This document shows positions 4,777 through 40,516 of a stretch of 64,000 nucleotides of DNA, piece after piece. The stretch is from Closterium sp. NIES-65 (taxonomy: Eukaryota > Streptophyta > Zygnematophyceae > Desmidiales > Closteriaceae). The stretch spans positions 142,001 to 206,000 of the forward strand of contig CANXME010001996.1 in the NCBI GenBank assembly GCA_948144175.1, in the 5' to 3' direction. The position numbers and the translations under genes were made by a program. The notes below the pieces were generated by a model. It was not told where the DNA came from and made no database searches. It worked only from the letters and a program-made list of their open reading frames with translations. How positions within the stretch are numbered: position 1 is the stretch's first letter; each line of letters starts with the position of its first letter.

Positions 4777-4790
4777 CCTGCTCGATACCA
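4777..4790 (-). other. Primer-binding site, copy A
   Basis: Minus-strand TGGTATCGAGCAGG starts at the first base after the LTR. It matches the initiator-Met site TGGTATCAGAGC except that one A is missing after TGGTATC. The same variant is found at 8161 and 22477. Confidence 0.7.
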
Positions 4791-4921
4791 TGAGAAAGTG
4801 AGAACGAGAATGAATGAACTATGAATGAAGTGGGTACAAGTACTAACACTAATTGGGTTGTACCCCCTATGGGATACCCCACTACTGCCTACACAAAAGC
4901 ATAAGCTATAATGTTCTGACA
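4791..4921 (-). repeat. 5' LTR of copy A (131 bp)
   Basis: On the minus strand it starts TGTCAGAACATTATAGC and ends CTTTCTCA, with TG...CA termini, directly followed by the primer-binding site. It aligns with LTRs at 8032-8160, 12925-13051, 13250-13376 and 63735-63862. About 130 bp is very short for a copia LTR. The boundaries are supported by the solo LTR at 13542-13668, which has a target duplication. Confidence 0.9.
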
Positions 4922-7900: not shown

Positions 7901-8012
7901 TAAGGCCAACACTGCTGATATCTTCACCAAGGCACTTGCGCCTTGTGATCATCAGCGCTTCTGTACTCAGTTGGGTCTTGTGCCTGCCTTGCCTCACTTG
8001 CTCACCTCTTGA
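4922..8012 (+). pseudogene. pol of copy C: integrase tail, hinge, RT, RNase H
   Basis: 4922-5080 gives the integrase C-terminal part (APCVFLG, WQFYHPT). The hinge (about 5160-6120) carries GGAEPGGA-type repeats. RT starts near 6490 (MASWKSTGTYVDEVPPPGAN) and has the catalytic YVDD near 7037. RNase H follows (HADASWADDQ, CEAEIYAGA). Nonsense TAG at 6368-6370 and 6494-6496 both stand where B has CAG. A one-base deletion near 7525, a TAG near 7714 and a small deletion near 7885 finish the reading frame. About 200 bp of 3' untranslated DNA present in B, including the polypurine tract, is missing before the LTR. Confidence 0.9.
5190..5400 (+). repeat. 15-bp coding minisatellite in the hinge of copy C
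   Basis: Units similar to GGGGGTGCTGAGCCT repeat through this interval and encode Gly-Gly-Ala-X-Pro-like pentapeptides. Equivalent arrays lie at about 545-730 (copy A) and 9950-10100 (copy B), with different unit number and order, showing rapid turnover inside coding sequence. Confidence 0.75.
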
Positions 8013-8031
8013 CCTTGCTTGTACTGTTACA

Positions 8032-8160
8032 TGTCGGAACATTATATAGCTTATACATTTGTGTAGGCTGTAGTGGGGTATCCCATAGGGGGTACAACCC
8101 AATTAGGGTTAGTACTTGTACCCACTTGATTCATAGTTGATTCATTCTCGTTTCTTCTCA
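8032..8160 (+). repeat. LTR shared by copies C and B (129 bp)
   Basis: Starts TGTCGGAACATTATATAGC and ends TTTCTTCTCA. It follows the 3' end of C pol directly and precedes the PBS of B. Compared with other family LTRs it has a CAG to CGG change near the start and a two-base TA duplication. Confidence 0.9.
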
Positions 8161-8174
8161 TGGTATCGAGCAGG
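8161..8174 (+). other. Primer-binding site, copy B
   Basis: TGGTATCGAGCAGG immediately after the LTR; initiator-Met-like with one base missing. The following 30 bases, a weak inverted repeat around AGGTTCCC...GGGAAC and CCTAGGGCCCACCA, are conserved in A, A2 and A4. Confidence 0.7.
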
Positions 8175-8498
8175 TTCCCTAACGGGAACGATTCCTAGGG
8201 CCCACCACTACGATTTTTTTTCCCTGCCCGGAGCGCGCTCCTCTTAAGCCCGAGTCGCGCCCTGTATGCTCACCTTACTGTCGCGTCACCCATAGCGGCC
8301 TCCTCACGGCCTGTCGCGCTGACCCTTGCGGCCCCTTAGGCCCCTTCGCGGCCCCGTCACGCTGCCCTACGGTCGCGTCGCGCCGCCCTAGCGGCCTCTC
8401 GTGGCCCCGATCAGCCGCCCTTGCGGCCCCGATCCTCCGCCCTTTCACCAGCGGCTCCATCGCCGCCCTTGCAGCAGCCCGTCGCCGCCCTTGCAGCG
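8175..8498 (+). other. Leader of copy B, ending at the gag deletion
   Basis: A GC-rich untranslated leader with repeated GCCCTTGCGGCC-like words and no conserved protein. Near 8498 the leader word GCCCTTGCAGC joins GGTTGCGGTGT, which is protease sequence in A and A3, marking the deletion of gag and the start of protease. Confidence 0.7.
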
Positions 8499-11400: not shown

Positions 11401-12710
11401 CGAAGATGACCACTCTTCGGGTACTGCTACACGTTGCTGCTCAACGTGACTACAAGCTGCACTCTTTTGACTTCAGCACAGCTTTCTTGCAGGGCAGCCT
11501 GCACGAGGAGATCTGGCTGCGTCGCCCACCTGGCTTCACTGGGTCGTTCCCTACAGGTACCCAGTGGAGTCTCCGGCGTCCAGTCTACGGTCTCCGCCAG
11601 GCGCCCCGTGAGTGGCACGACACACTGAGGACTACGCTTGCGGCTCTTGGGTTTGCTCCTTCTACTGCCGACCCGTCGCTGTTTCTGCGCACCGACACCT
11701 CTCTGCCGCCGTTCTACATCCTCGTGTACGTCGACGACTTGGTCTTTGCCACAGCTGACACTGCTGGACTCGCCTACGTGAAGTCCGAGCTGCAGAAGAG
11801 ACACACGTGCACCGACCTGGGTGAACTGCGCAGCTACCTTGGCTTGCAGATCACCCGGGACAGAGCACGCCGCACCATTACCCTGACTCAGTCACACATG
11901 GTGCAGCAGGTCCTTCAGCGCTTCGGCTTCACGTACTCCTCGCCTCAAGCCACTCCTCTGCCTTCTCGCCACTCACTCTCAGCTCTGCCTTCGGATGAGT
12001 CCGTAGAGTCGAGTGGCCCGTATCCAGAGCTTGTTGGCTGTCTCATGTACCTGATGACCTGCACACGAACTGACCTTGCATACCCTCTTAGCATTCTCGC
12101 ACGCTATGTTGCTCCTGGGAGACACCGACTAGAGCACATGGCTACAGCGAAGAGGGTGTTGCCCTACTTGTGCAGTACGTCGGGCATGGGGCTAGTGCTT
12201 GGAGGGCGGAGTCCAGTGGTCCTCACTGAGCACGCAGACGCTTCTTGGGCTGACGACCAGGCTACGCAGCGGTCGTCACAGGGTTACACATTCAGCCTTG
12301 GTTCCGGCTCTTCTTCGTGGCGGGCTACTCGCTCGTCTTCTGTTCTCGGCTCTAGTTGTGAGGCTGAGATCTACGCTGGGGCTATGGCTGCACAGGAGCT
12401 TCGCAGGCTCACCTACTTGCTGACTGACCTCAGAGAGCTGCCTCGTTCTCCTCCAATTCTGTACGTAGACAACAAGGCCATGGTGGCCTTGTGTCGAGAG
12501 CAGAGACTGGAGCACAGAGCAAAGCACATTGCTCTCCGCTACTTCCTTGCTCGTGAGCTACAGCAGCGTGGTCAGTTGCGGCTTGCGTACGTGGCCTCTG
12601 AGGCCAACATTGCTGATGTCTTCACCAAGGCATTTGCGCCTTGTGATCATCAGCGCTTCTGCACTCACCTGGGTCTTGTGCCTGTCGTGCCTCACTTGCT
12701 CACCTCTTGA
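8499..12710 (+). pseudogene. pol of copy B: partial protease, integrase, hinge, RT and RNase H
   Basis: One reading frame from the leader to TGA at 12708-12710, interrupted only by TAG at 10809-10811 (GAG in C) and TAG at 11364-11366 (CAG in C). The protease lacks its DSGA. GAG-pre-integrase (WHQRLGHLSL...CVPC) is followed by integrase with catalytic Asp near 9108, Asp near 9315 and Glu at 9423, a D-X35-E spacing. The Gly/Ala/Pro hinge spans about 9950-10450. RT runs from about 11200 with YVDD near 11730. RNase H keeps all expected acidic positions (HADAS, CEAEIY, YVDN, IADVFTKA). Apart from the two stops the enzymatic part looks functional, so the copy is fairly young. Confidence 0.93.
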
Positions 12711-12924
12711 CCTTGCTTGTACTGTTACATATATATATACACCTGCTCTTGCTTGTCTAGCCTTATATATATATATGTACTCCTGCATGTGAACTGGCCT
12801 TGTGGCCTTGAACTTGTGCTCGGAATGTGTGGTGACGTTGTGATCCATCCTGAGCTTGCTTCGCTTTGCTTTGCTTGACTGGTCTTGTGACCCCTTGCTC
12901 TCCCCCACTTTGCCTATGGGGGTG

Positions 12925-13051
12925 TGTCAGAACATTATAGCTTATACATTTGTGTAGGCTGTAGTGGGGTATCCCAGAGGGGGTACAACCCAATTAGGGT
13001 TAGTACTTGTACCCGCTTGATTCATAGTTCATTCATTCTCGATTCTTCTCA
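12925..13051 (+). repeat. 3' LTR of copy B, first copy (127 bp)
   Basis: TGTCAGAACATTATAGC to GATTCTTCTCA, preceded by the polypurine tract ATGGGGGTG. It ends where the second 3' untranslated unit begins. Confidence 0.88.
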
Positions 13052-13249
13052 TTACATATATATATGCACCTGCTCTTGCTTGTCTAGCCTTATATATATT
13101 TGTACTCCTTCATGTGAACTGGCCTTGTGGCCTTGAATTTGTGCTCGGAATGTGTGGTGACTTTGTGATCCACCCTGAGCTTGCTTTGCTTTGCTTTGCT
13201 TGACTGGTCTTGTGACCCCTTGTTCTCCCCCACTTTGCCTATGGGGGTG

Positions 13250-13376
13250 TGTCAGAACATTATAGCTTATACATTTGTGTAGGCTGTAGTGGGGTAGCCC
13301 ATAAGGGGTACAACCCAATTAGGGTTAGTACTTGTACCCAACTGTTTCATAGTTCAATCATTCTCGTTTCTTCTCA
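13250..13376 (+). repeat. 3' LTR of copy B, second copy (127 bp)
   Basis: Same termini and polypurine tract as the first copy. The DNA after it (GTAACCATGTTTCTCTTG) matches the local ~182-bp satellite, so this is the true right edge of the insertion. Confidence 0.88.
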
Positions 13377-13970
13377 TGGTAACCATGTTTCTCTTGAGCT
13401 TTCACTTGTTTACTATATTCGTAAGCATGCAAGATAGATTTAGTGCCATTCGCAGCATCAGGTATGAAGATATGTTGTGTCACACAATTGAGCAGGGAAA
13501 ATTGAGCAATAATAGGCCCGTGCTAGTCGTGATTTCGTTTCTGTCAGATTTATATGACATAGCTATTGTATGCTATAGTGGGGTAGCACACATGGGGTAC
13601 AGATTTCTAGGGTTTGTACTTGTACCCAACTTTCACTTAGTCATTTCATTCTCGTTTCAGTTTTCTCAGTTTCAACGTTCGTTTGTCATTTTTAGCCAGG
13701 TTTCTCTTGACCATTCATGCATTTACTATATTTGTAAGCTTGCAAGGCAGATTTGGTGCCATTCGCCGCATGAGGTAGGAAAATGTGATGTTTCAAACAA
13801 TTGAGCAGGGAAAGCTGTGCAAGGATAGGCCTGTGCGAAACGTGATGTCCTTTCAACATTCGTTTGTCATTTGTAACCAGGTTTCTCTTGACCATTCACA
13901 CATTTACTACATTTGTAAGCATGCAAGATGGATTTGGTGCCATTTTTAACATCTGTTAGGGAGATATGAT
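13377..13970. repeat. ~182-bp satellite, about three units
   Basis: The words CAGGTTTCTCTTGACCATTC, TTTACTAYATTYGTAAGC, RGATTTRGTGCCATT and ACAATTGAGCAGGGAAA recur about every 182 bp once the 132 bp of the solo LTR insertion are removed. Unit 1 is 13377-13541 continuing at 13669, unit 2 is about 13674-13852 and unit 3 is 13853-13965, decaying after that. It is AT-rich and has no open frame of note. This appears to be target DNA for copy B and the solo LTR. Confidence 0.8.
13542..13668 (+). repeat. Solo LTR, family A subfamily 2 (127 bp) with target duplication
   Basis: Starts TGTCAGATTTATATGAC and ends CGTTTCAGTTTTCTCA. It is flanked by GTTTC at 13537-13541 and GTTTC at 13669-13673, a 5-bp target duplication typical of copia. 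The lone LTR is what intra-element LTR recombination leaves. Its sequence is closest to the LTR at 22365-22476. Confidence 0.9.
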
Positions 13971-22364: not shown

Positions 22365-22730
22365 GCCTAGCTACTGTAGGCTATAGTGGGGTAGCACATA
22401 TGGGATACAAATTTCTAGGGTTTGTACGTGTACCCAACTTTCACTTAGTCATTTCATTCTCGTTTCAGTTTTCTCATGGTATCGAGCAGGTTCCCTCGTG
22501 GGAACTGTTCCTAGGGCCCACCATCTTTTTTTTCCTGCCCGGAGCGCACTCAGCCCCTGCCCAAGTCGCGCTCCCCTCTCTCTCGGCCCCTAGTGGCCCG
22601 GTCGCGCCGCCCTTATGGCCCCGCCGCGTCGCGCCGCCCTTGCGGCCCCGTCGCGCCGCCTTCGCGACCCCGGCGCGTCGCGCCGCCCTTGCGGCCCCGT
22701 TGCGCCGCCTTGAGGGAGACTGGGCATCGC
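22365..22730 (+). mobile_element. Family A copia fragment A4 (5' LTR, PBS, leader)
   Basis: LTR 22365-22476, lacking about the first 20 bp relative to the solo LTR at 13542 and ending TTTTCTCA. Next is PBS TGGTATCGAGCAGG at 22477 and the conserved leader start (CCTAGGGCCCACCA, CCTGCCCGGAGCGC). GC-rich GCCCTTGCGGCC repeats follow. No gag is present. Confidence 0.8.
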
Positions 22731-22913
22731 GCCGACCGGGCCGCTGCTGCCGCGATGCGCCATGCGGCTACCTTTTGGCCGCTCTGCGCATCACGCCGAC
22801 TAGGCCGCCGCCGCCGCAATGCGCAATGCGGCCAGCTTCTGGCCCCTCGGCGCATCGCGCCGACCAGGCCGCCGCCGTCGCAATGCGCAATGCGGCCACC
22901 CTGCTGGGCGAGA
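22722..22913 (+). repeat. 64-bp tandem repeat, three units
   Basis: Units begin GGGCATCGCGCCGACC (22722), GCGCATCACGCCGACT (22786) and GCGCATCGCGCCGACC (22850); each contains GCCGCCGCCGYCGCAATGCG and ATGCGGCCA. It extends the leader of A4 and then gives way to the decamer array. No coding function is suggested. Confidence 0.75.
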
Positions 22914-23109
22914 GTGTGCCACTGCTGAGGCCAGGGTTTCCAAGCTCTCTCGTTTGCTAGCAACCCCTCTCGTGCTCTCTTGTCTCCTGCCCATTATTTC
23001 TCTCTCCCTCACATGCCGTGTCATCCCCGGCCAAAGCCTCGAATATGGCAATACCCTCTCTCGTGCCAGGCCTCGCTTTTAAGCTATCTCGTGCTTGACT
23101 GCTCTCTAG

Positions 23110-25870
23110 TCCCCTCTAGTTACATTGAATCCCCTTTCCATCCCTCTCTGTCACCCCCTCTCATACACACTCATCCCCTCTCCATCCCTCTCACCCACTC
23201 TCGTATACTCTCATTCCCTCTCATACCCTCTCATCCACTCTCATCCCCTCTCATCCCCTCGCATTCACTCCCACTCACTCTCATACACTCTCATCCCCTC
23301 TTATCCACTCTCATACACTCGATGAGACTCTCATAACCTCTCATACCCTCCGATACAAATCAGATGCACTCTCATTCCCTCTCATACACTCTCATACACT
23401 CTCATCCCCTCTCATCCTATCTCATACACTCTCATCCCTCTCATTCCCTCTCATACCTTCTCATTCCCTCTCATGCCCTCTCATCCACTCTCATCCCCTC
23501 ACACACACTCTCATTCCCGCACATTCACTCACATACACTCACACACTTTCATCCCCTCTCATTTGCTTTCATCCCCTTTCATCCCCTCTCATTCCTTCTC
23601 ATACACTCTCATACACTCTGATACACTCTCATCCCCTTTCATACCCTCGCACACTCTCATTCCCTTTTATCCCCTCTCATTCACTCTCATTCACTCATAT
23701 TCTCTCTCATTCCCACTTATCCACACTCATTCCCTCTCATTCCCTCTCATCCCCTCTCCTTCCCTCTCATTCCCTCTCATCCTCTCTCATTCCCTCTCAT
23801 CCCCTCTCATCCCCTTTCATCCCCTTTCATCCCCTCTCATTCCCTCTCATCCACTCTCATTCCCTCTCATCCCCTCTCATCCCCTTTCATCCCCTTTCAT
23901 CCCCTCTCATTCCCTCTCATCCCCTTTTTCACTTTCATCCCCTCGCATTACCTCTAATACACTCTCATCCCCTCCCATCCCCTCTGATTCACTCTCATAC
24001 ACTCTGAAACACTCTCATCCCCTTTCATCCACTCTCATCCACTCTCATCCCCTCTCAACCCCTCTCGTTCACTCTCAAACACTCTCATACACTCTCATCC
24101 CCTCGCATACACTCTCATAGACTCTCAACCACCCTCATTCACTCTCATACACTCTCATACACTCTCATACACTCCGATACACTCTCATCCCCTTTCATCC
24201 CCTCACACACTCTCATTCCCTTTCATCCCCTCCCATTCCCTCTCATTCACTCATATTCCCTTTCATTCCCATCCATCCACTCTCATTCCCTCTCATTCCT
24301 TCTCATCACTCTCATTCCCTCTCATCCCCTCTCATCCCCTTTCATCCCCTTTCATTCCCTCTCATTCCCTCTCATAGACTCTCATTCACTCCCCTCTCAT
24401 CCCCTCTCATAGACTCTCATTCACTCTCATCCCCTCTCATACACTCTCATTCCCTCTCATACACTCTCATCCCCTCTCATCCTCTCTCATGAACCCTCAT
24501 ACGCTCTTATTCACTCTCATCCCCTCTCATCCTCTCTCATGAACCCTCATACGCTCTTATTCACTCTCATCCCCTCTCATCCACTATTTTATACACTCTC
24601 ATCCCCTCTCATACACTCTCAACCACTCATTTACTCTCCTACACTCTCATACACTCTCATCCCCTATCATACACTCCCATTAACTCTCATACACTCTCAT
24701 TTCCTCTCATTCCGTCTCATCCCGTCTCATCCCCTCTCATCTCCTCTCATACACTCGCATACACTGTCATACACTCTCTTACACACTCTCATCCCTCCTC
24801 ATCCACTCTCATCCCCTCTCATCCCATCTCATTCCCTACCATACACTCTCATACACTCTCATACCCTCTCATACCCACTCACACACTATCATATATACTC
24901 TCATCCCCTCTTATACACTCCCATACACACTCATACACTCTCATACACTCCCTTTCACTCTCATACACTCTCATCCCTTCTCATTCTCTCTCATCCCCTC
25001 TCATCCTCTCTTATCCCCTTTCATCCCCTCACACACTCTCATTCCCTTTCATCCCCTCTCATTCACTCTCATTCACTCATATTCCCTTTCATTCCCACTT
25101 ATCCACACTCATTCCCTCTCATTCCCTCTCATTCCCTCTCATTCCCTCTCATTCCTTCTCATCACTCTCATTCCCTCTCATCCCGTCTCATACCCTTTCA
25201 TGCCCTTTCATCCCCTCTCATTCCCTCTCATCCCCTCTCATCCCCTTTCATCCCCTTTCATCCCCTCTCATTCCCTCTCATACACTCTCATACACTCTCA
25301 TACACTCTCATACACTCTCATCCCCTCTCATCCTCTCTCATAAACTTTCATACACTCTTATTCACTTTCATCCCCTCTCATCCACTATCTTACACACTCT
25401 CATCCCCTCTCATACACACTCATACCCCCTAATCCGCTCTCATCCACTCTCATACACTCTCATGCACTCTCATACACACTCATTTTCTCTCATCCCCTCT
25501 CATCCCCTCTCATACACTCTCATCCACTCTTATTCCCACTCATCCACTCTCATACACTCTCATACACTCTCATCCCCTCTCATACACACTCATATACTCT
25601 CATCCCCTCTCATACACTCTCATCCCCTCTCATACACACTCATACCCCCTAATCCACTTTCATCCTCTCTCATACACTCTCATGCACATTCATTTCCTGT
25701 CATCCCCTCTCATCCCCTCTCGTACACTCTCATCCACTCTTATTCCCACTCATCCACTCTCATACACTCTCATACACTCTCATCCCCTCTCATACACTCT
25801 CATACACTCTCATACCCCCTCATACACTCTCATACCCTCTCCTATACTCTCATACACTCTTCCCCATCTC
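23110..25870. repeat. Decamer minisatellite array 1 (CTCTCATMCM)
   Basis: About 2.76 kb of degenerate 10-bp units such as CTCTCATACA, CTCTCATCCC and CTCTCATTCC. Because 30 nt equals three units, one frame stays open as Ser-His-Pro-Leu-Ser-like text for hundreds of codons, but this is a by-product of the repeat. The same repeat in reverse orientation lies at 32780-38491. Local higher-order duplications are visible, for example CATGAACCCTCATACGCTC twice near 24490 and 24540. Confidence 0.92.
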
Positions 25871-26272
25871 CTCCCATCATCAACCGGTCCCCTTTGCAAC
25901 CCTCTATTTCTCACAAAATTTCTGTTTTATTTGACATTCTCTCTTGTCTCCGAATCATGCCCCTAACTCTTGAAAGGCGCTCAATTTACCCCCTTACATT
26001 CTCTCAACTTTATTTCCGCATGGTCGTATTCTCCAACAGAGCTTGTGGCGGTCGTGAGGGACATCATGTTTCACCTCATACGTTCAAGGTGAGAGGTTGA
26101 TGTTGAATACCCAAGAATTGTTCATTTCCAAACAAGAAATAAGCTGAAGTGCATTGTTAATATTAGCCATCGTTCATTTCCAAACAAGAATTGTATTTGA
26201 TAACTTGCAAACTTCCGTGTGGTATCCCCTTGATCCATTATCTTTTGGTTATGTAGCAATTTTGATGTGCAG
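25871..26272 (+). other. Inner flank of array 1, upstream of the MULE exon
   Basis: AT-rich unique DNA. About 26035-26098 can be read as GREGHHVSPHTFKVRG and ends at a possible donor (CAAGGTGAGAG), so an upstream exon is possible. The stretch ends at an acceptor-like TTTTGATGTGCAG before 26273. TTCATTTCCAAACAAGAA occurs twice near 26125 and 26170. Confidence 0.4.
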
Positions 26273-28470
26273 GAAGATGATGCTGTCAACATTTACAAGG
26301 GGAAGCTCTAGCCAACTGTTGTAGCAGCAAGGGAGGAGGTGCGGTTGTACTGTAGGCAGCAGACGTTTGCTCCGTATTTCCGCTATAATCGATCAAATCT
26401 CATTGAGGTGTGGTGCAAGTCCATGGAGGGCAAGGTATGGCCTCGTGGGGAGGTGCACATCGGAGAAGGGATGTGTCTATTTCGTGTTGTCATACGGGGA
26501 CCGTGCTATAGTAACCTGCGGGTCACGGAGGCGAATTTGGATCACACCGATAGGTGTGTCACCGATGCTGCAAGGATTCGGAGGGATGAGGTCAAAGACG
26601 TTGCGCGTGAGATGCAAAAGCATGGTGACGTGAGACCTCATGCGTTGATAAGTCGTGTTAGGGCGGTTTTGCGTGTGGAGTGCTCGTACATGGTTGCGCG
26701 CGAGGTGCTATTTGAGCTGAGGAATGCGGATCCGTTTTGTGGAGACGATGGGTTTCAATACATGGAGGACCTGTTAGGAAAGTTCAAGGATGATAACCCT
26801 TCATCTGTTGTGTCCATGGTCAGACGGGGAAATAACTTCTACCGTGAGGGAATTATTTTTCTAGGGGCAAGAAATGCGGTTATGAACTGCCTGCCGAACA
26901 TTTTTGCAGATGGATGCCATAACAAGACCGCATGGGGGGGATACACCCTGAACATATGCATGTTGGATAGCCAAAACAAACTTGTTATGTTGGGGTGTGC
27001 ATGGGTGGAGGGTGAAAACAAGCATGCATGTGCTTTCCTATTCAATCTCTTGCTGGAGGTCGTTCCGGAGGTGAACTCCTCTAACTTTGTGATGATGCAT
27101 GATAGTGGATGGGCATAGATATCCGCCACATCCACTTGTCTCCCCCTCATACGGGATTTGCATCACCCATTTGGTATGAAACTTCAAAAATAAGTTCAGG
27201 ACAGATCTGGACGGACAAATTCTAGCAGCAGCAGCGGCTCTGACATTGCTTGTGTACCTCAAGACAATGGAAAATTTTGAGATGGAATGTTCCGGTGGAT
27301 CCTCGTACCTTGTGGACAATGGATTGGGTGTTAAGTGGGCGACAGCTTATTTTGGAGCACCGCGTTATAGACGCTTTTCTTCTAATCCCGTTGAGTCTCA
27401 CCAAGCGTCGCTTTGGGGATTGCGGGATAAGAATCCGTCGCAGGTGCTGCTAGGCTTGGCAACTAAGCTATCGACGAAGATCGAAGAGAGGCGCCGATTG
27501 TACTCTGAGATGACAGCCGCTGACTTCTCTCCCAGGATAAAGCCAATAGTCCTTGGGAATCGCGATGAGGGCAAAAGATACAGGGTGGCTGAATCAGGAC
27601 AGAACGAGTACATAGTATGCCAAGGGGAGGAGAGGTGAGTCGTGACCACAAACCTTGAGGATCCTACAGTCACCCACTGCTCATGTGGCTACACCAAGTA
27701 AGTGGTGTTTAGGTTCTGTTTTTACCATTGCTAGCGTATGCTTCATTGGTGTATACTTGATCCAACTCAGCCATGAATATTGTGTTCATTAGCTTTTTCA
27801 AAGTCATGCAAGATCAAGCCTCATAATGTACCCACTCTAAATTTCAGACCCCATTTATCCCAAAATATTGAGGACTGCCCTAACCCCCTGACCATCTACC
27901 TTGCACATGCAGGGGAATAAGGTCGCCAAAGTGACGTGTGTACATATGCTTGCCGTAATCATATTTGCTGAATGTGGGCTTCTTTAAGCCATGTGTTCAT
28001 GTGTGTTATAAAATCCTGCTGGTTTGTAGCTATTCAATGAACAGTTTATACCCTCTCTTCTTTTACCCCTTACACAGGTCTTTACTTCCCCAAACCCAAG
28101 GGAGGGCACAGTTCGTATATTTACAAGAATAATGATAGTTTGATAATGCGTTAATCCCTTTTTACCTCATCGCCCATTTATCCCAAAAACAGGGAATACG
28201 GGCTGCCATGCGTACACATCTTCGCTGTGTTAAAAATTGATGGTTACAGGGCGCACGCAGTGATCCAGAAATACCACACAACTTCTGCATTGCAACAAGT
28301 GTACAGAACGCCAGTTCGACTCCTCGACCCAACCTCTATGGTCCCTGACGGTGTTACCCTCTCCAGTCTACAAGAAGAAGGCAGGTCGGCCACCAAAGTG
28401 AAGAATGCAGTCCACAGGAGAGATGGACCCAATCAAGTTGCGCAAGTGTGGAAAGTGCGGTGAGTACGGT
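26273..28470 (+). pseudogene. MULE (Mutator-like) transposase, two exons, broken
   Basis: Begins after an acceptor at 26271-26272. The N-terminal region holds YCRQQTFAPYFRYNRSNLIE. The MULE DDE core includes FADGCHNKTAWGGYTLN (first Asp near 26909) and GCAWVEGENKHACAFLFNLL, ending at MMHDSG (second Asp). A frameshift near 27105-27120 leads to the C-terminal half (YGICITHLV, TAYFGAPRYRRFSSNPVESH) typical of MULEs. A SWIM zinc finger C-X-C-X8-C-X-H is formed by CSCGYTK at 27697 and EYGLPCVH from 28193, across intron 27698-28192. Breaks: TAG 26309-26311, the frameshift, TGA 27177-27179, TGA 27636-27638 and another frameshift near 28370. In a living copy it would cut and paste the element in the nucleus. 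Confidence 0.85.
27698..28192 (+). other. Phase-2 spliceosomal intron inside the MULE SWIM domain
   Basis: Donor GTAAGTGG at 27698 and acceptor CCCAAAAACAG ending at 28192. Joining ACC AA with G GAA TAC restores T-K-E-Y-G-L-P-C-V-H, the second half of the SWIM zinc finger, in frame. The 495 bases between are AT-rich with many stops. Confidence 0.8.
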
Positions 28471-30246
28471 CATAATGCACGAACATGCGAGGTTCGTGCA
28501 GCCAACAATGTGTTGTGGGAGCCTTTGCAAACCCCCATAGCGCAATTGACAATGCAAACAATGACGGACACAGATGGTGCAGAGCATGTAGCCCTGTGCA
28601 GCGCTTGCAATCGAATTCAACACAGAGGGATTAGGTGTCAAGCCATGCGTCGACAAGGACAGTCGGGTGATGTGGAGGAAGAGTCGTGCAGCGAGGATGA
28701 TGGGAGTTTCGATTTGGTGGAAGGGATTGGTGAAGTGGATGAGGAGGGACGGGATGATCGCGATACTGTGACATATGGTGGGGAGCTGATCGAGGTGTTT
28801 GGTAGGGATCCAGGAACCGCTGGTGATGTTGGTCTTGGTGAACGCACAACCACGAACCTAGACTTGCCCACTCAAACAGAAAATTTTGGGGCAACACAGA
28901 TAGACATCACACAAGAGAGTCAGGCGGGACGAGTGTCTTATACTTCGGTGGCCGAGCGGGTGGAAGGGCTGAGGACTGCGGAGGACGTGGTTGCAGGGCG
29001 TATACGGTGGATGCAGGGATTACTCCTGCAGCGTGATGTGGCAAGACAGGCAGGAGAGGAACGTGCAACAACTGAAGGTAGGGGCAGAGGCAGGAGACGC
29101 CATGCAAGCACAGGGCAACAGGGAAGAGGGAGAGGGAGAGGCAGAGGCAGATATGGATCTCGGTCTTCCACGGAACAGCAGGGTGGAGCTGAACAGATGG
29201 AACAAAATGGTGGGAGCAGATTGGAAGGGATGGAAGGTCAGCAGGGGTTGAGAGGGCAGCAGGGAATGGGGAGGACGGCCGGGGTTGGGAGGTCAGCAAA
29301 GGATGGGAGGGCAGCAGGGGATGGGAGGGTAGCAGGGGATGGGAGGGCAGCAGAGGATGGCCAGGAAAAATGGGATGACAGGGCAGCAGGGGAGTGGAGG
29401 ACATGCGGGGTTGCGAGGGCTCCAAGGAGGGCTGCAGTGGATGGCAAGGCAGCATGGGATGACACTGCAGTAGGGGGGGGGGGGGAGGACAGGCGGGTGT
29501 GGGAGGGCAGCAGGGGATGGGAGGGCTGCAGGGGATGACAAGGCATCAGGGGAGCGGAGGACATGCGGGGTTGCGAGGGCAGCAGGGGATGGGAGGGCTG
29601 CAGGGGATGGGAAGGCTGCAGGGGATGGGAGGGCAGCAGGGGGGGGGGAGGACAGGCGGGTGTGGGAGGGCAGCATGGGATGGGAGGGCTGCAGGGGATG
29701 ACTAGGCAGCAGGGGAGTGGAGGACATGCGGGGTTGCGAGGGCTGCAGGGGATGGGAGGGCTGCAGGGGATGGGAAGGCTGCAGGGGATGGGAGGGCAGC
29801 AAGGGATGGCCAGGCAGAACGGGATGATAGGGCAGCAGGGGAGCGGAGGACAGCCGGGGTTGGGAGGGCAGCAGGGACTGGGTGGGCAGCAGGGAATGGC
29901 CAGGCAGCACGGGATGACAGGGCATCAGGGGAGCGAAGGACAGGCGGGGTTGCGAGGGCAGCAGGGTATGGGAGGGCTGCAGGATACGAGTGGCCAACTT
30001 GGGTCCCAAGAAGAATTACAAGGGCAAAATGGGTACGTTCAACCCCTTAACCAACGATGGGGACGCGTGGGAATGCCAATGCACGGGAATGTTGCAGGCC
30101 TGACACAACGTTGGAGCCATGTGGGCATGCCATTGCAACAGGAGGTTGAGGGGTCCGTGCCTGGTATGCACAAAAGGACGCCGTGCCAACAGGGGGACGA
30201 GAACAGTTATAGCTCTTTCCAGTACGAACTTGTGGGCTATGCATAA
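28370..30246 (+). pseudogene. MULE C-terminal tail: two CCHC zinc knuckles and a repetitive Gly/Arg/Gln tail
   Basis: Frame shifted relative to the SWIM exon. KKKAGRPPK, then TGA, then RMQSTGE resembles the basic linker after SWIM in plant MULEs. CGKCGEYGHNARTC and CSACNRIQHRGIRC are both C-X2-C-X4-H-X4-C. An acidic stretch (EEESCSEDDGSFDLVEG), an RGRGRGRG segment near 29080-29150 and a minisatellite-coded tail follow. TGA at 29536-29538 interrupts; the frame continues to 30246. The zinc knuckles would bind nucleic acid. Whether the tail was ever translated is not known. Confidence 0.7.
29240..29990 (+). repeat. 18-bp minisatellite (CAGCAGGGGATGGGAGGG) in the MULE tail
   Basis: Units of about 18 bp recur, with a longer super-repeat marked by GGAGYGGAGGACATGCGGGG near 29391, 29551, 29714, 29840 and 29929. 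The frame stays open over most of it (GQQGMGGLQG-like), showing expansion inside or next to coding sequence. A run of 12 G lies near 29475. Confidence 0.8.
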
Positions 30247-31166
30247 TATTGTAGTCATGGTTACTTGATTGACTTCAAAAGCGCTCTGCAACTGGTTTGA
30301 TAGCTTGTAGTCGTGGCTCTGCACCGTCACAAAAATACTCTCATGCAAGCGTATGGTACCAATATTCAACAGTTAAGATAAGCAGTATCATTTACTCGAC
30401 ATCCTCTAGTTACTTCTTTCTATTGTTTGTCTTGTTCAGTGTGTCCATTTTTTACAGGACGTTGTGGGGTAGGAAGGTGAGCAAGGGAGTTGTTGAATGA
30501 ATTACCTACCCTAAATCACGGCAATGGTTGAGAAGGCGTGTTATGTACATACCTGTTATGGCCTGGTGGAATTTTTGTAACAATACCGTACGGTCATATC
30601 GGCATGCCACTCCATCAGTAGGTTACGGGGTTAATGCATGGAATGGACACTAGATCTCATTGCCAACATGGACAAATAACAGTTGCAGGTCCTTGTAGAT
30701 ACTGCACTTGGGACTATGGTACTATGCATGGTAACCGTAGTAGTACGGTAAGTTGACCTCAAGGAGTCATGAGCGTTTTTCATCTAGTTTGATCATAGTC
30801 TGGTAGGCCTACCCTCGTCCACTTGATCTCCAATCATGCTTGGGCAAGCGGTTAGATTCATGCGTGTTAAACTGCTCAATTATGTCTTGCCATTTTTATC
30901 CTAACCATAAGTGTTGTTCTGTTTCCATACAAGGACACCCTGTTGTGGGGGTAAGAAGTGCGTGGGACAGTTGCTCTTGCTAGCTTTATGACTTTCCTTT
31001 ATTGCTGCAGGGGTTGACATGGTACATACGGTCATCGTGTCAACTTATATATGTATGTCTCATGGTCTTGGACGGTGCAGTTTTGTACATGTGCAATTGA
31101 TGACAGCAGAGTTGGTGTTTGGTACGAATGGTTCGAATCCTACACGACAGTATGCAATGATGAGAG
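30247..31166. other. AT-rich unique DNA, no gene recognised
   Basis: Short frames only. No terminal repeats, RNA gene or domain are seen. Local word ATACTG/TACGGTA repeats near 30585-30750 are weak. Confidence 0.5.
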
Positions 31167-31746
31167 TACCGTATTCTCCTGGACAAAACACCCCCCCCCC
31201 CCCCCCCCCCCCCCCGTAATTGTACACCCCCGGATAGCTTGTGCGGGGTGGGTGTTATGATAGACCTCGTTTCTACTATACCCCCCTTTTTGGCTGATTT
31301 TCTATAACAGCCTCCTTTTCTTACGAATTCGTCATTATAGTCGTTAACGAGTAGCTGCAATACGGAAGAATATCACGAAAATTTATCCCTAGATGAAATT
31401 TCGCGGTACATTCACTTACAATCTGCCGAGATTTCCCCCCTCCCACTACTTCGCAGTCGCCACGTGCAGGCGAATCTTCCGCTGCAAGTGGCAAGAGAGG
31501 TGCCACATGGCATTTTTGTAGGGGTGATGAAGTTTGTGGCCGAAACTCACATTCGCGCCTCAGACAGTGATGTTAAAATGAAAATCAAAACACCCATATT
31601 GTCTAATCAAATCAACACTAACACTAAAATATACCATATGTAAAGACCCGGGTATTCTGTATTTTTTTCCTATGAGGAGACCCCCCCCATTTTTTCCCTG
31701 TATTTTTAGCTATACCCTAGGGTGTTATGTCCGGGAGAATACGGTA
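31167..31746. mobile_element. Candidate non-autonomous DNA transposon with terminal inverted repeats
   Basis: The left end TACCGTATTCTCCTGGAC followed by AAAACACCC is matched in reverse complement at the right end (TACCGTATTCTCCCGGAC, then ATAACACCC), about 24 of 27 positions. The inside has no long frame and holds a C run of 27 near 31190-31215. TA at both ends could be a TA target duplication. Length about 580 bp. Superfamily is not determined. Confidence 0.5.
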
Positions 31747-32779
31747 GTGAAATTGCATACAACGCCAGAAATATATATATATATTTGAATGATCTGATCA
31801 GCGTGGTGTCCCACGGAGAAGCCACACTTCTACCCGAAACCATGCTCGCAGAACTTCCCAGCTCTGAACCGTCCAAATTGACAATGAAATTTCTCCACAC
31901 CACGCTTCTCGTCCCATATACCTCATTCACAACACCGTCTAACCAGCCATTTATAGCCGCCCACACCAATTTACCCACCCTCTAACCGTCACTTCAGATA
32001 ACATTTATATGTGTATGCACTAAGTCACCGCCTGCCTTCTCATCTCCTTTCGCCATCCGTTCTCCTGAACCTTCCATATGTGTTTTGCAGCCTTGACCTT
32101 CGCAGTCCTCAACCTGCACGCGTCCTCGGCCACCGATATATCCGGCACTCTTGGTGGGTCCGTCATCGTCATGGTGATGTATCGTCTCCCTTGTAAACAC
32201 TCCGACTGCTTTCTTCATATCTCTCCTGGCACCAGCTATACATCCGACGGCATGACTCAAACTTGCTACCGAGACCTTCATGGTACCGTTTTTGGACCTG
32301 TGTATGACAATGCAAAATGGACATAACGCATCTTTGCGGCTTACCTCTCCACCTAGCCAACTCAAATTTTGCATCGAGTTGCACCATACCTCGATGTGTT
32401 TTTCGCTACTAAAATATTAGAACTCCCTAACCATATTTTGCCGACAATACAACCGAACATCCTCCCTCACTTCTGCGGCTGATGGATAAACCTTCCCCTT
32501 TAATATGTTGCATACGCCGAACTCCTGCATATCGACATGACTAGTGCACCAAACGAAATAGAGATCAAGGAACATCAGATTGCAATTTGTGTGTGAAATC
32601 TGGCATTACAATGGAGCGTACGAAGCATCGTAATGTCAACCAAGAATATTAGGATCTGCATGGGTCAACCCTAAATACATGGGCCAGACCTCACCTGGCT
32701 TGCATTGGGTGAGACATGACGCTGATCCCAAGTGCCAAGAGCTCTGATGGATAATGAGCACGGGAAGATAACGGGGAAT
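31747..32779. other. Unique DNA between the TIR element and array 2
   Basis: No conserved protein found. Frames on both strands up to about 126 codons lack recognisable motifs. The last 90 bases (32690-32779) hold the segment with inverted similarity to 26060-26100, the inner edge of array 1. Confidence 0.45.
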
Positions 32780-33960
32780 GAGCGGGGATGATAGGAACAG
32801 GGAACCAGGACTAGAGAGGTGATGAGAATGGATGAGAGTGGATGAAAGGGGCTGAGAGTGGTTGAGAGTGGATGAAAGGGGATGAGAGTGGTTGAGAGTG
32901 TATGATAGAGGATGAGAGGGGATGAGAGAGTAAAACAATGTTTGAGAGGGGATGAGAAGGGATTAGAGGGGATGAGAGGGGATGAGAGGGAATGAGAGTG
33001 AATGAGAGGGGATGAGAGGAAATGAGAGCTTGTGAGAGGGGATAAGAGGGTATGAGAGGGGATGTGAGGGAATGAGAGTGTATGAGATGGAATGAGAGGG
33101 AATGAGAGGCAAGGTGAGGGGATGAAAGGAAATGAGAGTGTGTGAGAGGGAATGAGAGGGAATGGGGGCGAATGAGAGTGTATGAGAGTGTATGAGAGTG
33201 GATGAGAGCTCATAAGAGTGTATGACAGTGTATGAGAGGGGATGTGAGTGTGTGAGAGTGTATGAGAGTAGTAGAGAGTGAATGAGAGTGAATGAGATTG
33301 TATGGGAGTGTATGAGAAGGGATGAGAGTGTATAGGATGGTGGATGAGAGTGAATGAGAGTGTATGAGAGTGTATGGGAGCGGACAAGAGTGTACGAGAT
33401 TGTATATGATAGTGGATGAGAGGGGATGCGAGTGCATGAGAGTTTATGAGAGGGGTTGAGAGGAGATGGGAGTGGATGAGAGGATATGAGAGTGTATATG
33501 ATAGGCACGGGGAAACAGGACCAGAGAGGTGATGAGAGTGAATGGGAGGAGATGAGAGGGAATGATAGAGTGCGTGATAGGATGAGAGGGGATGAGAGTG
33601 TATGAGAATGTATGAGATTTTATGAGAAGGGATGAGAGGGGATGAGAGGAGATGAGAGGAGATGGGAGTGGATGAAAGGGTATGAGAGTGTAAATGATAG
33701 GCACGGGGACCAGGACCAGAGAGGTGATGAGAGTGAATAGGAGGAGATGAGAGGGAATGATAGTGTGTGATAGGATGAGAGGAGATGAGAGCGTATGAGA
33801 GTGTATGAGAGGGAATGAGAGGGGACGAAAGGGGATGAGAGTTAATGAGAGAAGATGAGAGGGAATGAGAGTGGATGAGAGGTAATGAAAGGGAAATGTG
33901 AGGGAATGCGAGGGATTGAGAGGGGATGAGAGGGAATGAGAGGGAATAAGAGGGAATGAG

Positions 33961-34580
33961 AGGCAATGTGAGGGGATGAAAGGGAATGAGAGTGTGTGAG
34001 AGGGAATGAGAGGGAATGAGAGGCAATGTGAGGGGATGAAAGGGAATGAGAGTGTGTGAGAGGGAATGAGAGGGAATGAGAGGCAATGTGAGGGGATGAA
34101 AGGGAATGAGAGTATGTGAGAGGGAATGAGAGGGAATGAGAGGCAATGTGAGGGGATGAAAGGGAATGAGAGTGTGTGAGAGGGAATGAGAGGGAATGAG
34201 AGGCAATGTGAGGGGATGAAAGGGAATGAGAGTGTGTGAGAGGAGATGAGAGGGAATGAGAGGCAATGTGAGGGGATGAAAGGGCATGAGAGTGTGTGAG
34301 AGGGAATGAGAGGGAATGAGAGGCAATGTGAGGGGATGAAAGGGAATGAGAGTGTGTGAGAGGGAATGAGAGGGAATGAGAGGCAATGTGAGGGGATGAA
34401 AGGGAATGAGACTGTGTGAGAGGGAATGAGAGGGAATGAGAGGGAATGAGAGGCAATGTGAGGGGATGAAAGGGAATGAGAGTGTGTGAGAGGGAATGAG
34501 AGGGAATGAGAGGCAATGTGAGGGGATGAAAGGGAATGAGAATGTGTGAGAGGGAATGAGAGGGAATGAGAGGCAATGTG
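33961..34580. repeat. 60-bp higher-order repeat within array 2
   Basis: AGGCAATGTGAGGGGATGAA starts at 33961, 34021, 34081, 34141, 34201, 34261, 34321, 34381, then after one extra decamer at 34451, 34511 and 34571. Ten near-identical six-decamer units point to recent amplification. Confidence 0.92.
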
Positions 34581-35139
34581 AGGGAATGAGAGGGGATGAG
34601 AGTGTGTGAGAGGGGATGAGAAGGAATGGGGCAAATGAGAGTGGATGAGAGTGGTAGAGAGTGAATGAGAGTGAATAAGAGTGTATGGGAGTGTATGACA
34701 AGGGATAAGAGTGTATAGGATAGTGGATGAGAGTGAATCAGAGTGTATGAGTGTGAATGGGAGGGTACGAGAGTGTACGAGAGTGTATATGATAGTGGAT
34801 GAAAGGGGATGAGAGTGTATGAGAGTATATGAGAGTGGATAAGTGGGGATGAGAGGGGATGAGAGTGGATAAGAGGGTATGAGAGTGTATATGATAGTTG
34901 ATGGGAGGGTATGAGAGTGTATGAGAGGGGATGAGAGTGTATGAGAGTATATATGACAGTGGATGAGAGGGGATGAGAGTGTTTGAGAGAGCATAATAGT
35001 GGATGAGAGTGAAAAATTGTGTATGAGAGTGTATGAGGGGATGAGAGGGGATGAGAGTGTATGAGAGTGGATGAGGATGGATGAAAATTTATGAGTGTGT
35101 GTGGGAGTGTATGAGAGGGGTTGAGAGTGTATGAGAGTG

Positions 35140-37400
35140 GATGAGAGCTCATAAGAGTGTAAGACAGTGTACGAGAGGGGATGAGTGTAGGCGAGTGTAT
35201 GAGAGTGTATGAGAGTGGTAGAGATTGAATGAGAGTGAATGAGAGTGTATGGGAGTGTATGAGAAGGGATAAGAGTGTATAGGATAGTGGACGAGAGTGA
35301 ATGAGAGTGTATGAGTGTGAATGGGAGGGGACAAGAGTGTACGAGAGTGTACGAGAGTGTATATGATAGTGGATGAAAGGGGATGAGAGTGTATGAGAGT
35401 GTATGAGAGTGGATGAGTGGGGATGAGAGGGGATGAGAGTGGATAAGAGGGTATGAGAGTGTATATGATAGTTGATGGGAGGGTATGAGAGTGTATGAGA
35501 GGGGATGAGAGTGTATGAGAGGATATATGACAGTGGATGCGAGGGGATGAGAGTCTTTGAGAGTGCATGAGAGTGGATGAGAGTGAAAATTTGTGTATGA
35601 GAGTGTATGAGAGGGGATGAGAGTGTATGAGAGTGGATGAGGATGGATGAGAATGTATGAGTGTGTGTGGGAGTGTATGAGAGGGGTTGAGAGTGTGTGA
35701 GAGTGGATGAGAGCTCATAAGAGTGTAAGACAGTGTACGACAGGGGATGAGAGTGTATGCGAGTGTATGAGAGTGTATGAGAGTGGTCGAGAGTGAATGA
35801 GAGTGAATGAGAGTGTATGGGAGTGTATGAGAAGGGATAAGAGTGTATAGGATAGTGGATGAGAGTGAATGAGAGTGTATGAGTGTGAATGGGAGGGGAC
35901 GAGAGTGTACGAGAGTGTACGGGAGTGTATATGATAGTGGATGAAAGGGGATGAGAGTGTATGAGAGTGTATGAGAGTGGATGAGTGGGGATGAGAGGGG
36001 ATGAGAGTGGATAAGAGGGTATGAGAGTGTATATGATAGTTGATGGGAGGGTATGAGAGTGTATGAGAGGGGATGAGAGTGTATGAGAGTATATATGACA
36101 GTGGATGCGAGGGGATGAGAGTCTTTGAGAGTGCATGAGAGTGGATGAGAGTGAAAATTTGTGTATGAGAGTGTATGAGAGGGGATGAGAGTGTATGAGA
36201 GTGGATGAGGATGGATGAGAATGTATGAGTGTGTGTGGGAGTGTATGAGAGGGGTTGAGAGTGTGTGAGAGTGGATGAGAGCTCATAAGAGTGTAAGACA
36301 GTGTACAACAGGGGATGAGAGTGTATGCGAGTGTATGAGAGTGTATGAGAGTGGTCGAGAGTGAATGAGAGTGAATGAGAGTGTATGGGAGTGTATGAGA
36401 AGGGATAAGAGTGTATAGGATAGTGGATGAGAGTGAATGAGAGTGTATGAGTGTGAATGGGAGGGGACGAGAGTGTACGAGAGTGTACGGGAGTGTATAT
36501 GATAGTGGATGAAAGGGGATGAGAGTGTATGAGAGTGTATGAGAGTGGATGAGTGGGGATGAGAGGGGATGAGAGTGGATAAGAGGGTATGAGAGTGTAT
36601 GAGAGGGGATGAGAGTGTATGAGAGTATATATGAGAGTGGATGAGAGGGGATGAGAGTGTTTGAGAGTGCATGAGAGTGGATGAGAGTGAAAATTTGTGT
36701 ATGAGAGTGTATGAGAGGGGATGAGAGGGGATGAAAGTGTATGAGAGTGGATGAGGATGGATGAGAATGTATGAGTGTGTGTGGGAGTGTATGAGAGGGG
36801 TTGAGAGTGTATGAGAGTGGATGAGAAATCATAAGAGTGTAAGACAGTGTACGAGAGGGGATGAGAGTGTATGAGAGTGTATGAGAGCGGTAGAGAGTGA
36901 ATGAGAGTGAATGAGAGTGTATGGGAGTGTATGAGAAGGGATGAGAGTGTATAGGATAGTGGATGAGAGTGAATGAGAGTGTATGAGAGTGTATGGGAGG
37001 GGACGAGAGTGTACGAGAGTGTATATGATAGTGGATGAAAGGGGATGAGAGTGTATGAGAGTGTATGAGAGTGGATGAGTGGGGATGAGAGGGTATGAGA
37101 GTGGATATGATAGTGGATGGGAGGGTATGAGAGTGTATGAGAGGGGATGAGAGTGTATGAGAGTATATATGACAGTGGATGAGAGGGGATGAGAGTATGA
37201 GAGTGCATGAGAGTGGATGAGAGTGAAAAATTGTGTATGAGAGTGGTTGAGAGGGGATGAGAGGGGATGAGAGTGTATGAGAGTGGATGAGGATGGATGA
37301 GAATGTATGAGTGTGTGTGGGAGTGTATGAGAGGGGTTGAGAGTGTATGAGAGTGGATGAGTGGGGATGAGAGGGTATGAGAGTGGATATGATAGTGGAT
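35140..37400. repeat. ~568-bp higher-order repeat within array 2
   Basis: The marker GAGAGCTCATAAGAGTGTAAG occurs near 35141, 35709 and 36277, with a variant (GAGAAATCATAAGAGTG) near 36823. Each block also carries GTGAAAATTTGTGTATGAG and AGTGTGTGTGGGAGTG. Period about 568, then about 546. A later partial block near 37230-37620 repeats the second half. Confidence 0.85.
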
Positions 37401-38491
37401 GGGAGGGTATGAGAGTGTATGAGAGGGGATGAGAGTGTATGAGAGTATATATGACAGTGGATGAGAGGGGATGAGAGTGTATGAGAGTGCATGAGAGTGG
37501 ATGAGAGTGAAAAATTGTGTATGAGAGTGGTTGAGAGGGGATGAGAGGGGATGAGAGTGTATGAGAGTGGATGAGGATGGATGGGAATGTATGAGTGTGT
37601 GTGGGAGTGTAAGAGAGGGGTTGAGAGTGTATGAAAGTGTATATGATAGTGGATGAGAGGGGATGAGAGTGTATGAGAATGTATGAGAGTGGATGAGAGT
37701 GAATGAGAGGTTATGAGAGGGGATGAGAGTGGATGAGAGGGTATGAGAGAGTATATGCTAGTGGATGAGAGGGAATGAGAGTGTATGAGAGTGTATGAGA
37801 GTGGACGAGAGTGAATGAGAGTGTATGAGAGTTTATGAGAGGGGATGAGAGGAGATGGGAGTGGATGAGAGGGTATGGGAGTGTATATGATAGTGGATGG
37901 GAGGGTATGAGAGTGTATGAGAGGGGATGATATTGTATGAGAGTGTATATGACAGTGGATGAGACGAGGTGAGAGTGTATGAGAGTGTATGAGAGTGGAT
38001 GAGAGTGAATGAGAGTGTATGAGAGTTTATGAGAGGGGATGAGAGGAGATGAGAGGAGATGGGAGGAGATGAGAGATGGGAGTGAATGAGAGGGCATGAG
38101 AGTGTATATGATAGTGGATGGGAGGGTATGAGAGTGTATGAGAGGGGATGAGAGGGGATGAGAATGTATGAGAGTGGACGAGGAGGGATGCGAATGTATG
38201 AGTGTGTGTGGGAGTGTATGAGAGGGGTTGCGAGTGTATGAGAGTGTATGAGAGTGGATGAGAGTGAATGAGAGTGTATGAGAGTTTATGAGAGGGGATG
38301 AGAGGGGATGCGAGGAGATGAGAGTGGATGAGAGGGTATGAAAGTGTATATGATAGTGGATGGGAGGGTATGAGAGTGTATGAGAGTGTATGAGAGGGGA
38401 TGAGAGTGTATGAGAGTGTATATGACAGTTGATGAGAGGGGATGAGAGTGTATGAGAGTATATGAGAGGGGATGAGAAGGGATGAGAGTGT

Positions 38492-40516
<2,025 letters not shown>

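Follow-up and report, generated by a model that had tools for sequence, protein, structure and literature searches.

A probable dead copy of a foldback-like MULE family with decamer arrays in its inverted arms in Closterium sp. NIES-65

Introduction

FB-NOF encodes a transposase of the Mutator-like element (MULE) type; FB and FARE both differ from the family described here in unit sequence, arm organisation and second gene. We encountered this family in a 64-kb stretch of the Closterium sp. NIES-65 genome (assembly GCA_948144175.1, contig CANXME010001996.1, hereafter C1698, positions 142001-206000; the window), in which two kilobase-scale arrays of a 10-bp repeat, CTCTCATMCM, face each other around a MULE transposase pseudogene. 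The cited text names FARE as a MULE-type and Galileo as a P-type foldback element (PMC3169594). FARE has the MULE-type transposase in common with the present family (PMC3169594), and both FB and FARE, compared by structure, have the long inverted arms with short tandem repeats. In the same text, Tm1 of root-knot nematodes has a Phantom-like transposase, arms in which a 13-15-bp repeat occurs 1-9 times, and target duplications of 9 bp (PMC3169594). Here too the transposase is of the MULE group, the arms are largely short tandem repeat, the duplications are of 9 bp and length varies between arms and copies; against the 1-9 units of Tm1, however, up to about 578 units (5.8 kb) are found, and unlike in Tm1 the array lies inward of a terminal repeat of about 0.9 kb and a transposase-derived second gene is present (PMC3169594). 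The earlier note on this DNA considered such a layout not commonly described; Tm1, FARE and FB are clear precedents.

The two genes of MuDR are convergent, and mudrB is not known to be a transposase paralogue. Its likeness to the present family lies in having two genes (mudrA and mudrB), each beside one terminal repeat (PMC6446971). Surveyed MULE arms span 14-500 bp according to that source. Rehavkus resembles our family in its 9-bp target duplication and a minisatellite before the 3' terminal repeat, but has arms of 26-400 bp, one open reading frame (ORF) and a PHD finger, and no inverted array pair is described in the cited part (PMC6446971). In VANDAL elements of Arabidopsis, where VANC acts in anti-silencing, an extra ORF stands beside the transposase, and VANC targets form tandem repeats of short motifs varying between related elements (PMC5735166); VANC is not described there as a copy of the transposase N terminus, and the present family is comparable in layout alone. 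Finally, arm repeats of Tetris in Drosophila virilis seeded satellite arrays (PMC4079207). Arm-internal tandem repeats that also form kilobase-scale satellite-like arrays are suggested here as well, by contig C443, yet Tetris has a 220-bp unit and, in the account cited, only non-autonomous copies without an identified transposase (PMC4079207). Our searches of open-licence PMC papers yielded no MULE with a second gene from the transposase N terminus or with arms this long, which is weak evidence of absence.

We propose that the window locus is very probably a dead copy of a MULE cut-and-paste family with composite arms, of which the array is an inner domain. All relatives below lie on other contigs (C numbers) of the window's own 874-Mb genome.

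Results

Opposed decamer arrays around a transposase pseudogene

The arrays and the transposase gene occupy the following positions of the window.

23158-25860, plus strand: array 1, 10-bp unit CTCTCATMCM (Tandem Repeats Finder, TRF, 271 copies, CTCTCATACA; decamer counts)
32814-38493, minus strand: array 2, inverted CTCTCATMCM unit (TRF 32814-38488, 561 copies, GAGAGGGGAT; to 38493 with longer periods)
26030-26088, plus strand: transposase exon 1, 3' part, start inferred (sequence; colinear match in gene 2; same in C2079)
26273-30246, plus strand: transposase pseudogene (sequence, protein comparison; the C105 relative has an open exon)
26273-27118, plus strand: zinc-finger-like N-terminal region and first part of the MULE domain, within the pseudogene
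27195-27700, plus strand: further transposase pieces, within the pseudogene
about 28194-28500, plus strand: second half of SWIM and zinc knuckle, then a glycine/glutamine tail, within the pseudogene
29227-29983, plus strand: 18-bp minisatellite in the glycine/glutamine-rich coding tail (TRF)

The opposed arrays around a MULE pseudogene reported in the earlier note are real, both by TRF and by decamer counts. Exact CTCTCATMCM is found 100 times on the plus strand, each time inside array 1, and 189 times on the minus strand, each time inside array 2; none lies outside the two arrays in the 64 kb. Unit types are common to both arrays. Their shared unit order shows no excess over unit shuffles or a first-order unit model: the longest shared unit word is 56, with a mean of 42 and a maximum of 59 in shuffles and a mean of 48 and a maximum of 79 in the model.

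Exon 1 of the window transposase ends at 26088 with a GTGAG donor directly after it; exon 2, from 26273, carries a stop, and a frame break and missing sequence affect the catalytic domain. The Pfam MULE profile (PF10551) matches the window copy at E 0.085, below the curated cut-off, and the C105 relative above it (E 1.1e-6, 29.4 bits, cut-off 27.6); four diverged relatives (E 0.0003-0.02) stay below. A CxC ... CxH motif split by an intron and a CCHC motif were recognised by eye, and in a Pfam scan of the window and C105 copies zf-CCHC_6 fell below cut-off and SWIM was unmatched. The C..CPFR..C columns of the N-terminal region are invariant and one H is nearly so. These residues, together with general MULE anatomy, suggest a putative DNA-binding region; no named DNA-binding domain was matched there above cut-off (PF03108, E 0.68, and HTH_32, E 0.039, in one relative). 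The coding-tail minisatellite has a longer 18-bp counterpart (955 bp) at 518001-518955 of C105.

Genome-wide, the transposase exon has 136 matches, including 16 close copies (at least 85%, one over part of the query). All 16, some of them duplicates of one locus, have a decamer array upstream in sense orientation. The distance from array end to aligned transposase start is 396-397 bp, or 452 bp in the window and 440 bp in C2281.

Ends, target duplications and arms of the family

True ends are preserved in relatives. On C105, what lies outside the arrays forms an inverted repeat with segments of 617 bp (95.5%), 154 bp (94.2%) and 165 bp (90.9%); the terminal repeats start with GGGAAAATATG, and TTATTCAAA flanks the element at either end. 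The outer 650 bp of this repeat, searched against the genome, gave at least 48 matches with at least ten large inverted pairs among them; 40 of 145 candidates were scored, so these figures are lower bounds. We read target duplications at 13 end pairs, namely nine of the ten large pairs (C1770 left out) and four small ones. Seven of the nine large pairs have an exact 9-bp duplication and C1712 agrees in eight of nine bases; C1872 scored two of nine in the fixed 9-bp comparison and has a 10-bp duplication, GCACAACCAC, as read from its flanks. Among the small elements the duplication is exact in three pairs and agrees in eight of nine bases in the fourth.

Several loci are represented twice (C2360 = C105, C1680 = C2079, C1879 = C1610, C2281 = C1698). 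C2281 is ruled out as an independent insertion: it is colinear with the window through the flanking copias, at 98.5% identity on the left, 94% across array 2 and 98.9% beyond. Once duplicates are removed, seven large and three small loci have 9-10-bp target duplications, one large one imperfect, and all seven large loci (C105, C1266, C1712, C697, C1851, C2079 and C1872) have an array in both arms. The family has moved to at least seven places, and terminal inverted repeats, target duplications within the 8-11 bp of MULEs and a MULE domain occur in it together. Array pairs flanking MULE genes across the genome and target duplications outside the arrays in cleaner copies, both of which had been suggested as checks, were found. 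Because the arrays are inverted in both arms and the 9-10-bp duplications lie outside them, the family can be called a foldback-like MULE; by sequence, its long inverted arms with short tandem repeat arrays would place it in that structural class.

Within the arms, a terminal repeat of about 920 bp, a 220-bp spacer and the array are contiguous in C1872 and C2360, and likewise in C885 without the outer 270 bp. The left arm of C2079 is without the spacer, its array joining the GC-rich part by the junction of the C105 right arm (by eye). Eight probes placed about 1 kb inside the termini (both arms of C1851, C1266 and C1712, one arm each of C697 and C2079) all fell on a decamer array pointing inward. 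Since both probed C1851 arms share the variant CTCTCGCACC and both C1712 arms share CTCTCACACC (by eye), the two arms of one element appear to stay similar. Six arrays have element sequence on either side and span 1.3-5.8 kb: window left 2.70, C105 left 3.50 and right 1.32, C2360 left 3.48, C2079 left 3.14 and C1872 left 5.83 kb. Others may have been cut by insertions, at 5.68 kb or more (window right), 3.39 kb (C1872 right), 0.63 kb (C2360 right), about 0.4 kb (C465 and C885 right) and 0.35 kb (C885b left, of which 1.5 kb was read). A copia insertion of about 7.6 kb (503189-510776, 88% to the window copia) sits in the left terminal repeat of C105 and is absent from the near-identical C2360.

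Genome-wide distribution of the decamer

The tandem 20-mer has 702 and 752 matches on the two strands of the genome, and its reversed control pattern 2 and 0. Two array 27-mers have 31 and 95 matches, all listed, with none for their controls. Judged by the closest landmark up to 20 kb away, whether a terminal repeat, a transposase or gene 2, 125 of these 126 matches are oriented as expected and none is discordant; random orientation, which would have spoken against the element, is not seen. Four of the 126 (C2075 near 195 and 208 kb, C2284) adjoin single terminal repeats that face apart and belong to separate elements. The remaining match, an isolated plus-strand word without landmark at C1698:215010, lies 9 kb past the right end of the window and may be a displaced outer part of array 2 after rearrangement.

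Among the tandem 20-mer matches listed (100 of 1,454), 56 are on C105 and 25 on C465, which carry elements, 16 on C443 and three on C344. The C344 matches were rejected as a family array, being five units in unrelated context. On C443 the array begins at 50,089 and was read to 65 kb; it is found again between 98,001 and 99,621, where the contig ends, with further 20-mers near 80 and 97 kb among the matches listed, which would give about 49.5 kb if continuous. Exact copies of 7,746 of the 14,871 30-mers from 50-65 kb are present in the right arm of C1872; for the left arm of C2079 the figure is 6,031, for the right arm of C105 it is 5,952, for window array 2 it is 12 and for window array 1 zero. 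The array has a 30-bp higher-order unit in common with the MULE arm arrays and, judged from these matches, probably represents an arm array that has expanded to the size of a satellite.

The convergent gene 2

Inward of array 2 lies a second gene, convergent to the transposase.

31994-32524, minus strand: gene 2 exon 2, a diverged duplicate of the N-terminal transposase region, interrupted by one in-frame TAA (protein alignment)
32696-32755, minus strand: 3' part of gene 2 exon 1, start inferred, with a GTGAG donor running downwards from 32695

Inverted similarity at the inner flanks had been reported, and it exists: the strongest match joins 26287-26358 to 32439-32510 (72 nt, 75%, E 5e-9). 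It is coding on both sides and belongs to the 5' exons of the two genes. The CATGTYTCACC...CMAGGTGAG pair pointed out in the earlier note is no terminal repeat and consists of the exon-1 ends of the transposase and gene 2 with their GTGAG donors. On the reverse complement of 31994-32755, a stretch of about 108 residues can be aligned to the beginning of the transposase exon at a local score of 192, compared with a maximum of 54 in 1,000 shuffles, and one of the six frames matches. Between the two window sequences, nonsynonymous divergence (dN) is 0.49 and synonymous divergence (dS) 1.17 (106 codons; Fisher p 0.0005, rounded counts), so their relation is unlike the neutral decay of once-identical terminal repeats. 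In all five copies tested, a 65-bp stretch of the gene-2 tail matches transposase C-terminal coding DNA; this match makes gene 2 look like a transposase gene that was copied in inverted orientation and lost an internal part.

Full copies of gene 2, convergent to the transposase, are present at 11 loci, some of them duplicates. The matched part is stop-free in nine, carries one TAA in the window and is split by a frameshift in C465. Between the C2281 and C1872 lineages dN is 0.143 and dS 0.303 (dN/dS 0.47; 174 codons; Fisher p 0.005, rounded counts), and within the C1872 lineage dN/dS is 0.34-0.82, resting on few changes; indels between the lineages keep the frame. At the level of sequence, these comparisons show a conserved gene-2 reading frame. 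A Pfam search of gene 2 gave no match. C105, C2360 and C1872 hold transposase and gene 2 inside one pair of terminal repeats, and a diverged gene 2, with stops, stands in convergent orientation to the transposase in C1988 and C1796, both of the 66% subfamily, and on C2090.

What is left at the window locus

Outside the arrays and genes, the window keeps parts of one arm, and other elements have come in.

22724-22937, plus strand: what remains of the inner, GC-rich portion (64-bp repeats) of the left terminal repeat (75-81% to C105 502919-503188)
22932-23157, plus strand: left-arm spacer between terminal repeat and array (22932-23191 is 89% to C105 510776-511035)
38494-40517, minus strand: copia long terminal repeat (LTR) abutting array 2, outside the MULE (TGTTAAAG; 92% and 97% to the C465 solo LTR)
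31167-31746, no strand assigned: separate inserted element with 27-nt inverted ends TACCGTATTCTCC (inverted-repeat comparison)

The element extends further left than the earlier note had it; the outer-arm remnants reach from 22724 to 23157. The outer 650 bp or so of the terminal repeat have no match in the window, and none was found on C1698 among the scored candidates. In place of the outer left terminal repeat there is copia-related sequence (22375-22709), and on the outer side array 2 stops at 38493, where the copia LTR starts. Copia sequence replaces both outer ends of the window element. C2281 keeps the far end: another array word is found at 755303, and pieces of the terminal repeat (87-88%) at 756295-757447.

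The matching LTR on C465 is a solo LTR inside the decamer array with a CTCAT duplication. A nearly pure (AC)n tract of 1.17 kb (39225-40396) expands the window LTR; the C465 solo LTR has no more than a short (GT)n. At C443:45122-47785, an AC tract of 2.66 kb adjoins a matching LTR end. The insertion at 31167-31746, between the two convergent MULE genes, has ends TACCGTATTCTCC(T/C)GGACA and a (C)25 run and would not belong to the MULE. Elsewhere in the window, positions 1-13377 hold copia copies that are inverted (1-2185 and 10660-8497) and direct (4921-8032 and 9658-12730), and a 325-bp unit is tandemly duplicated at 12725-13377.

Array position and unit turnover

More distant subfamilies have other repeats at the same place. 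Repeats of 24/33/57 bp lie upstream of the transposase in six of six copies of the 56-57% subfamily, and a 71-bp repeat or parts of it in five of five copies examined, of eight, in the 49-51% subfamily. These units are unrelated to the decamer and their upstream position is the same: across subfamilies, array position is kept and the unit is replaced. All 46 genome matches of the 57% unit lie on the 5' side of these six transposase genes in sense orientation, with none on the other side; three of them, in C298, are clustered apart at about 9 kb upstream. An inverted array is thereby ruled out for the 57% subfamily which, being one-sided, is not foldback-like. In three copies of the 66% subfamily there is just a leader rich in pyrimidines that contains (CT)n or decamer-like words.

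Four elements of about 537 bp, derived from the MULE, hold no decamer-like words. As these array-free relatives have target duplications, the array is not needed for being moved, and a need of it for mobility is ruled out. Two of them (C1610 and C1879) share their flanks, apparently one locus assembled twice.

Discussion

The structure of the relatives gives the following picture of the arm. From outside in, it consists of an AT-richer terminal repeat beginning with GGGAAAATATG and a GC-rich 64-bp minisatellite (together about 0.9 kb), then, in the left arm of some copies, a spacer of about 220 bp, and finally the CTCTCATMCM array, ending shortly upstream of a gene: the left array upstream of the transposase and the right one, in many copies, upstream of the convergent gene 2. 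The encoded transposase would act on the outer terminal repeat by cut-and-paste; the arrays would lengthen or shorten by slippage or unequal exchange and be homogenised between arms.

Several points weigh against our assignment of the window locus. Neither a terminal repeat end nor a target duplication survives there, and its family membership rests on relatives for that reason. The terminal-repeat census is a lower bound, and duplicates (C2079/C1680, C105/C2360, C1698/C2281) leave fewer independent events than loci, reduced further by C465, C885, C2075 and C985, which appear related. Finally, C443 has neither terminal repeat nor transposase among the matches listed.

What the arrays do is a separate matter. 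They could be functionless slippage products tolerated in the MULE 5' leader, which is compatible with the element described above and for which we see even chances. Their variable length among the six bounded arrays, a unit order no more shared between the window arms than in shuffles, the mobility of the array-free relatives of about 537 bp and the pyrimidine-rich leader of the 66% group, which could be a seed, all speak for it. On the other side, three subfamilies have unrelated arrays at one and the same upstream position, and each of the two genes has an array directly adjoining it.

Our favoured functional guess, though less likely than not, is a control role in which the array is read by the N-terminal region: arrays upstream of both genes might be binding sites for the transposase and/or the gene-2 protein and control the element's expression. 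We consider it rather unlikely, though worth stating, that the array is a replaceable address tag whose unit is swapped (10, 24/33/57 or 71 bp), with the N-terminal region of transposase and gene 2 co-evolving to read it and so controlling expression or silencing; the whole would then be a VANC-like system that arose when the DNA-binding part of the transposase was duplicated into the opposite arm. Several observations count against a function of this kind. C2079, C1680, C1712 and C697 have arrays and no gene-2 match (all 92 candidates scored), so the constant pairing of array and gene 2 within one copy that a VANDAL/VANC-like system would have is not found there. The 57% and 50% subfamilies have upstream arrays and no gene-2 match beyond the transposase itself. 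In three distant relatives (41-43% and 29%), no array extends to the gene over the 801 bp read upstream; a 36-42-bp repeat in one of them, at -765 to -618, stops short of the gene, and the other two show nothing comparable. The relatives of about 537 bp have moved without the decamer.

Three further explanations would undo the composite element, and each is highly improbable. Two unrelated, diverged MULEs might have landed tail to tail, the right fragment being foreign to the left element. The strong divergence of transposase and gene 2 in the window fits such an accident, but the convergent pair recurs at 11 loci, some duplicates, lies within one terminal-repeat pair in C105, C2360 and C1872, and returns in diverged form in the 66% subfamily and C2090; we give this account very little credence.

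The arrays alone might be the terminal repeats, as the earlier note proposed in suggesting termini built from a minisatellite. The outer array is indeed alike in both arms of C1851, C1712 and C2079, including the variant unit (by eye), and the arrays do sit inverted in the arms of MULEs; however, about 0.9 kb of non-decamer repeat with GGGAAAATATG ends lies outside the array in C105, C2360, C1872 and C2079, and no target duplication was seen directly at an array edge. Termini made solely of minisatellite are thus most unlikely.

Hardly any weight remains for the decamer as an ordinary dispersed minisatellite beside or into two arrays of which MULEs inserted by chance: the five-unit run on C344, the long C443 array without a MULE tie on its contig and the word at C1698:215010 would suit it, yet 125 of 126 27-mers lie near element landmarks in the expected orientation with none discordant, and the arrays lie inside the target duplications, which refutes it for the family.

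Within a single genome, the composite MULE provides a natural series: bounded arrays (1.3-5.8 kb), two subfamilies that use other units, mobile relatives lacking an array, and near-identical copies with and without later insertions. With this series, the old question of what makes arrays grow in foldback arms becomes testable. Two features stand out as surprising: the convergent gene derived from the transposase, and an array whose unit is replaced while its place stays fixed. The family also suggests a route by which an inverted arm can capture a transposase gene's 5' end, which then becomes a second, conserved gene, and a way in which a 10-bp arm repeat might expand into an array resembling a satellite.

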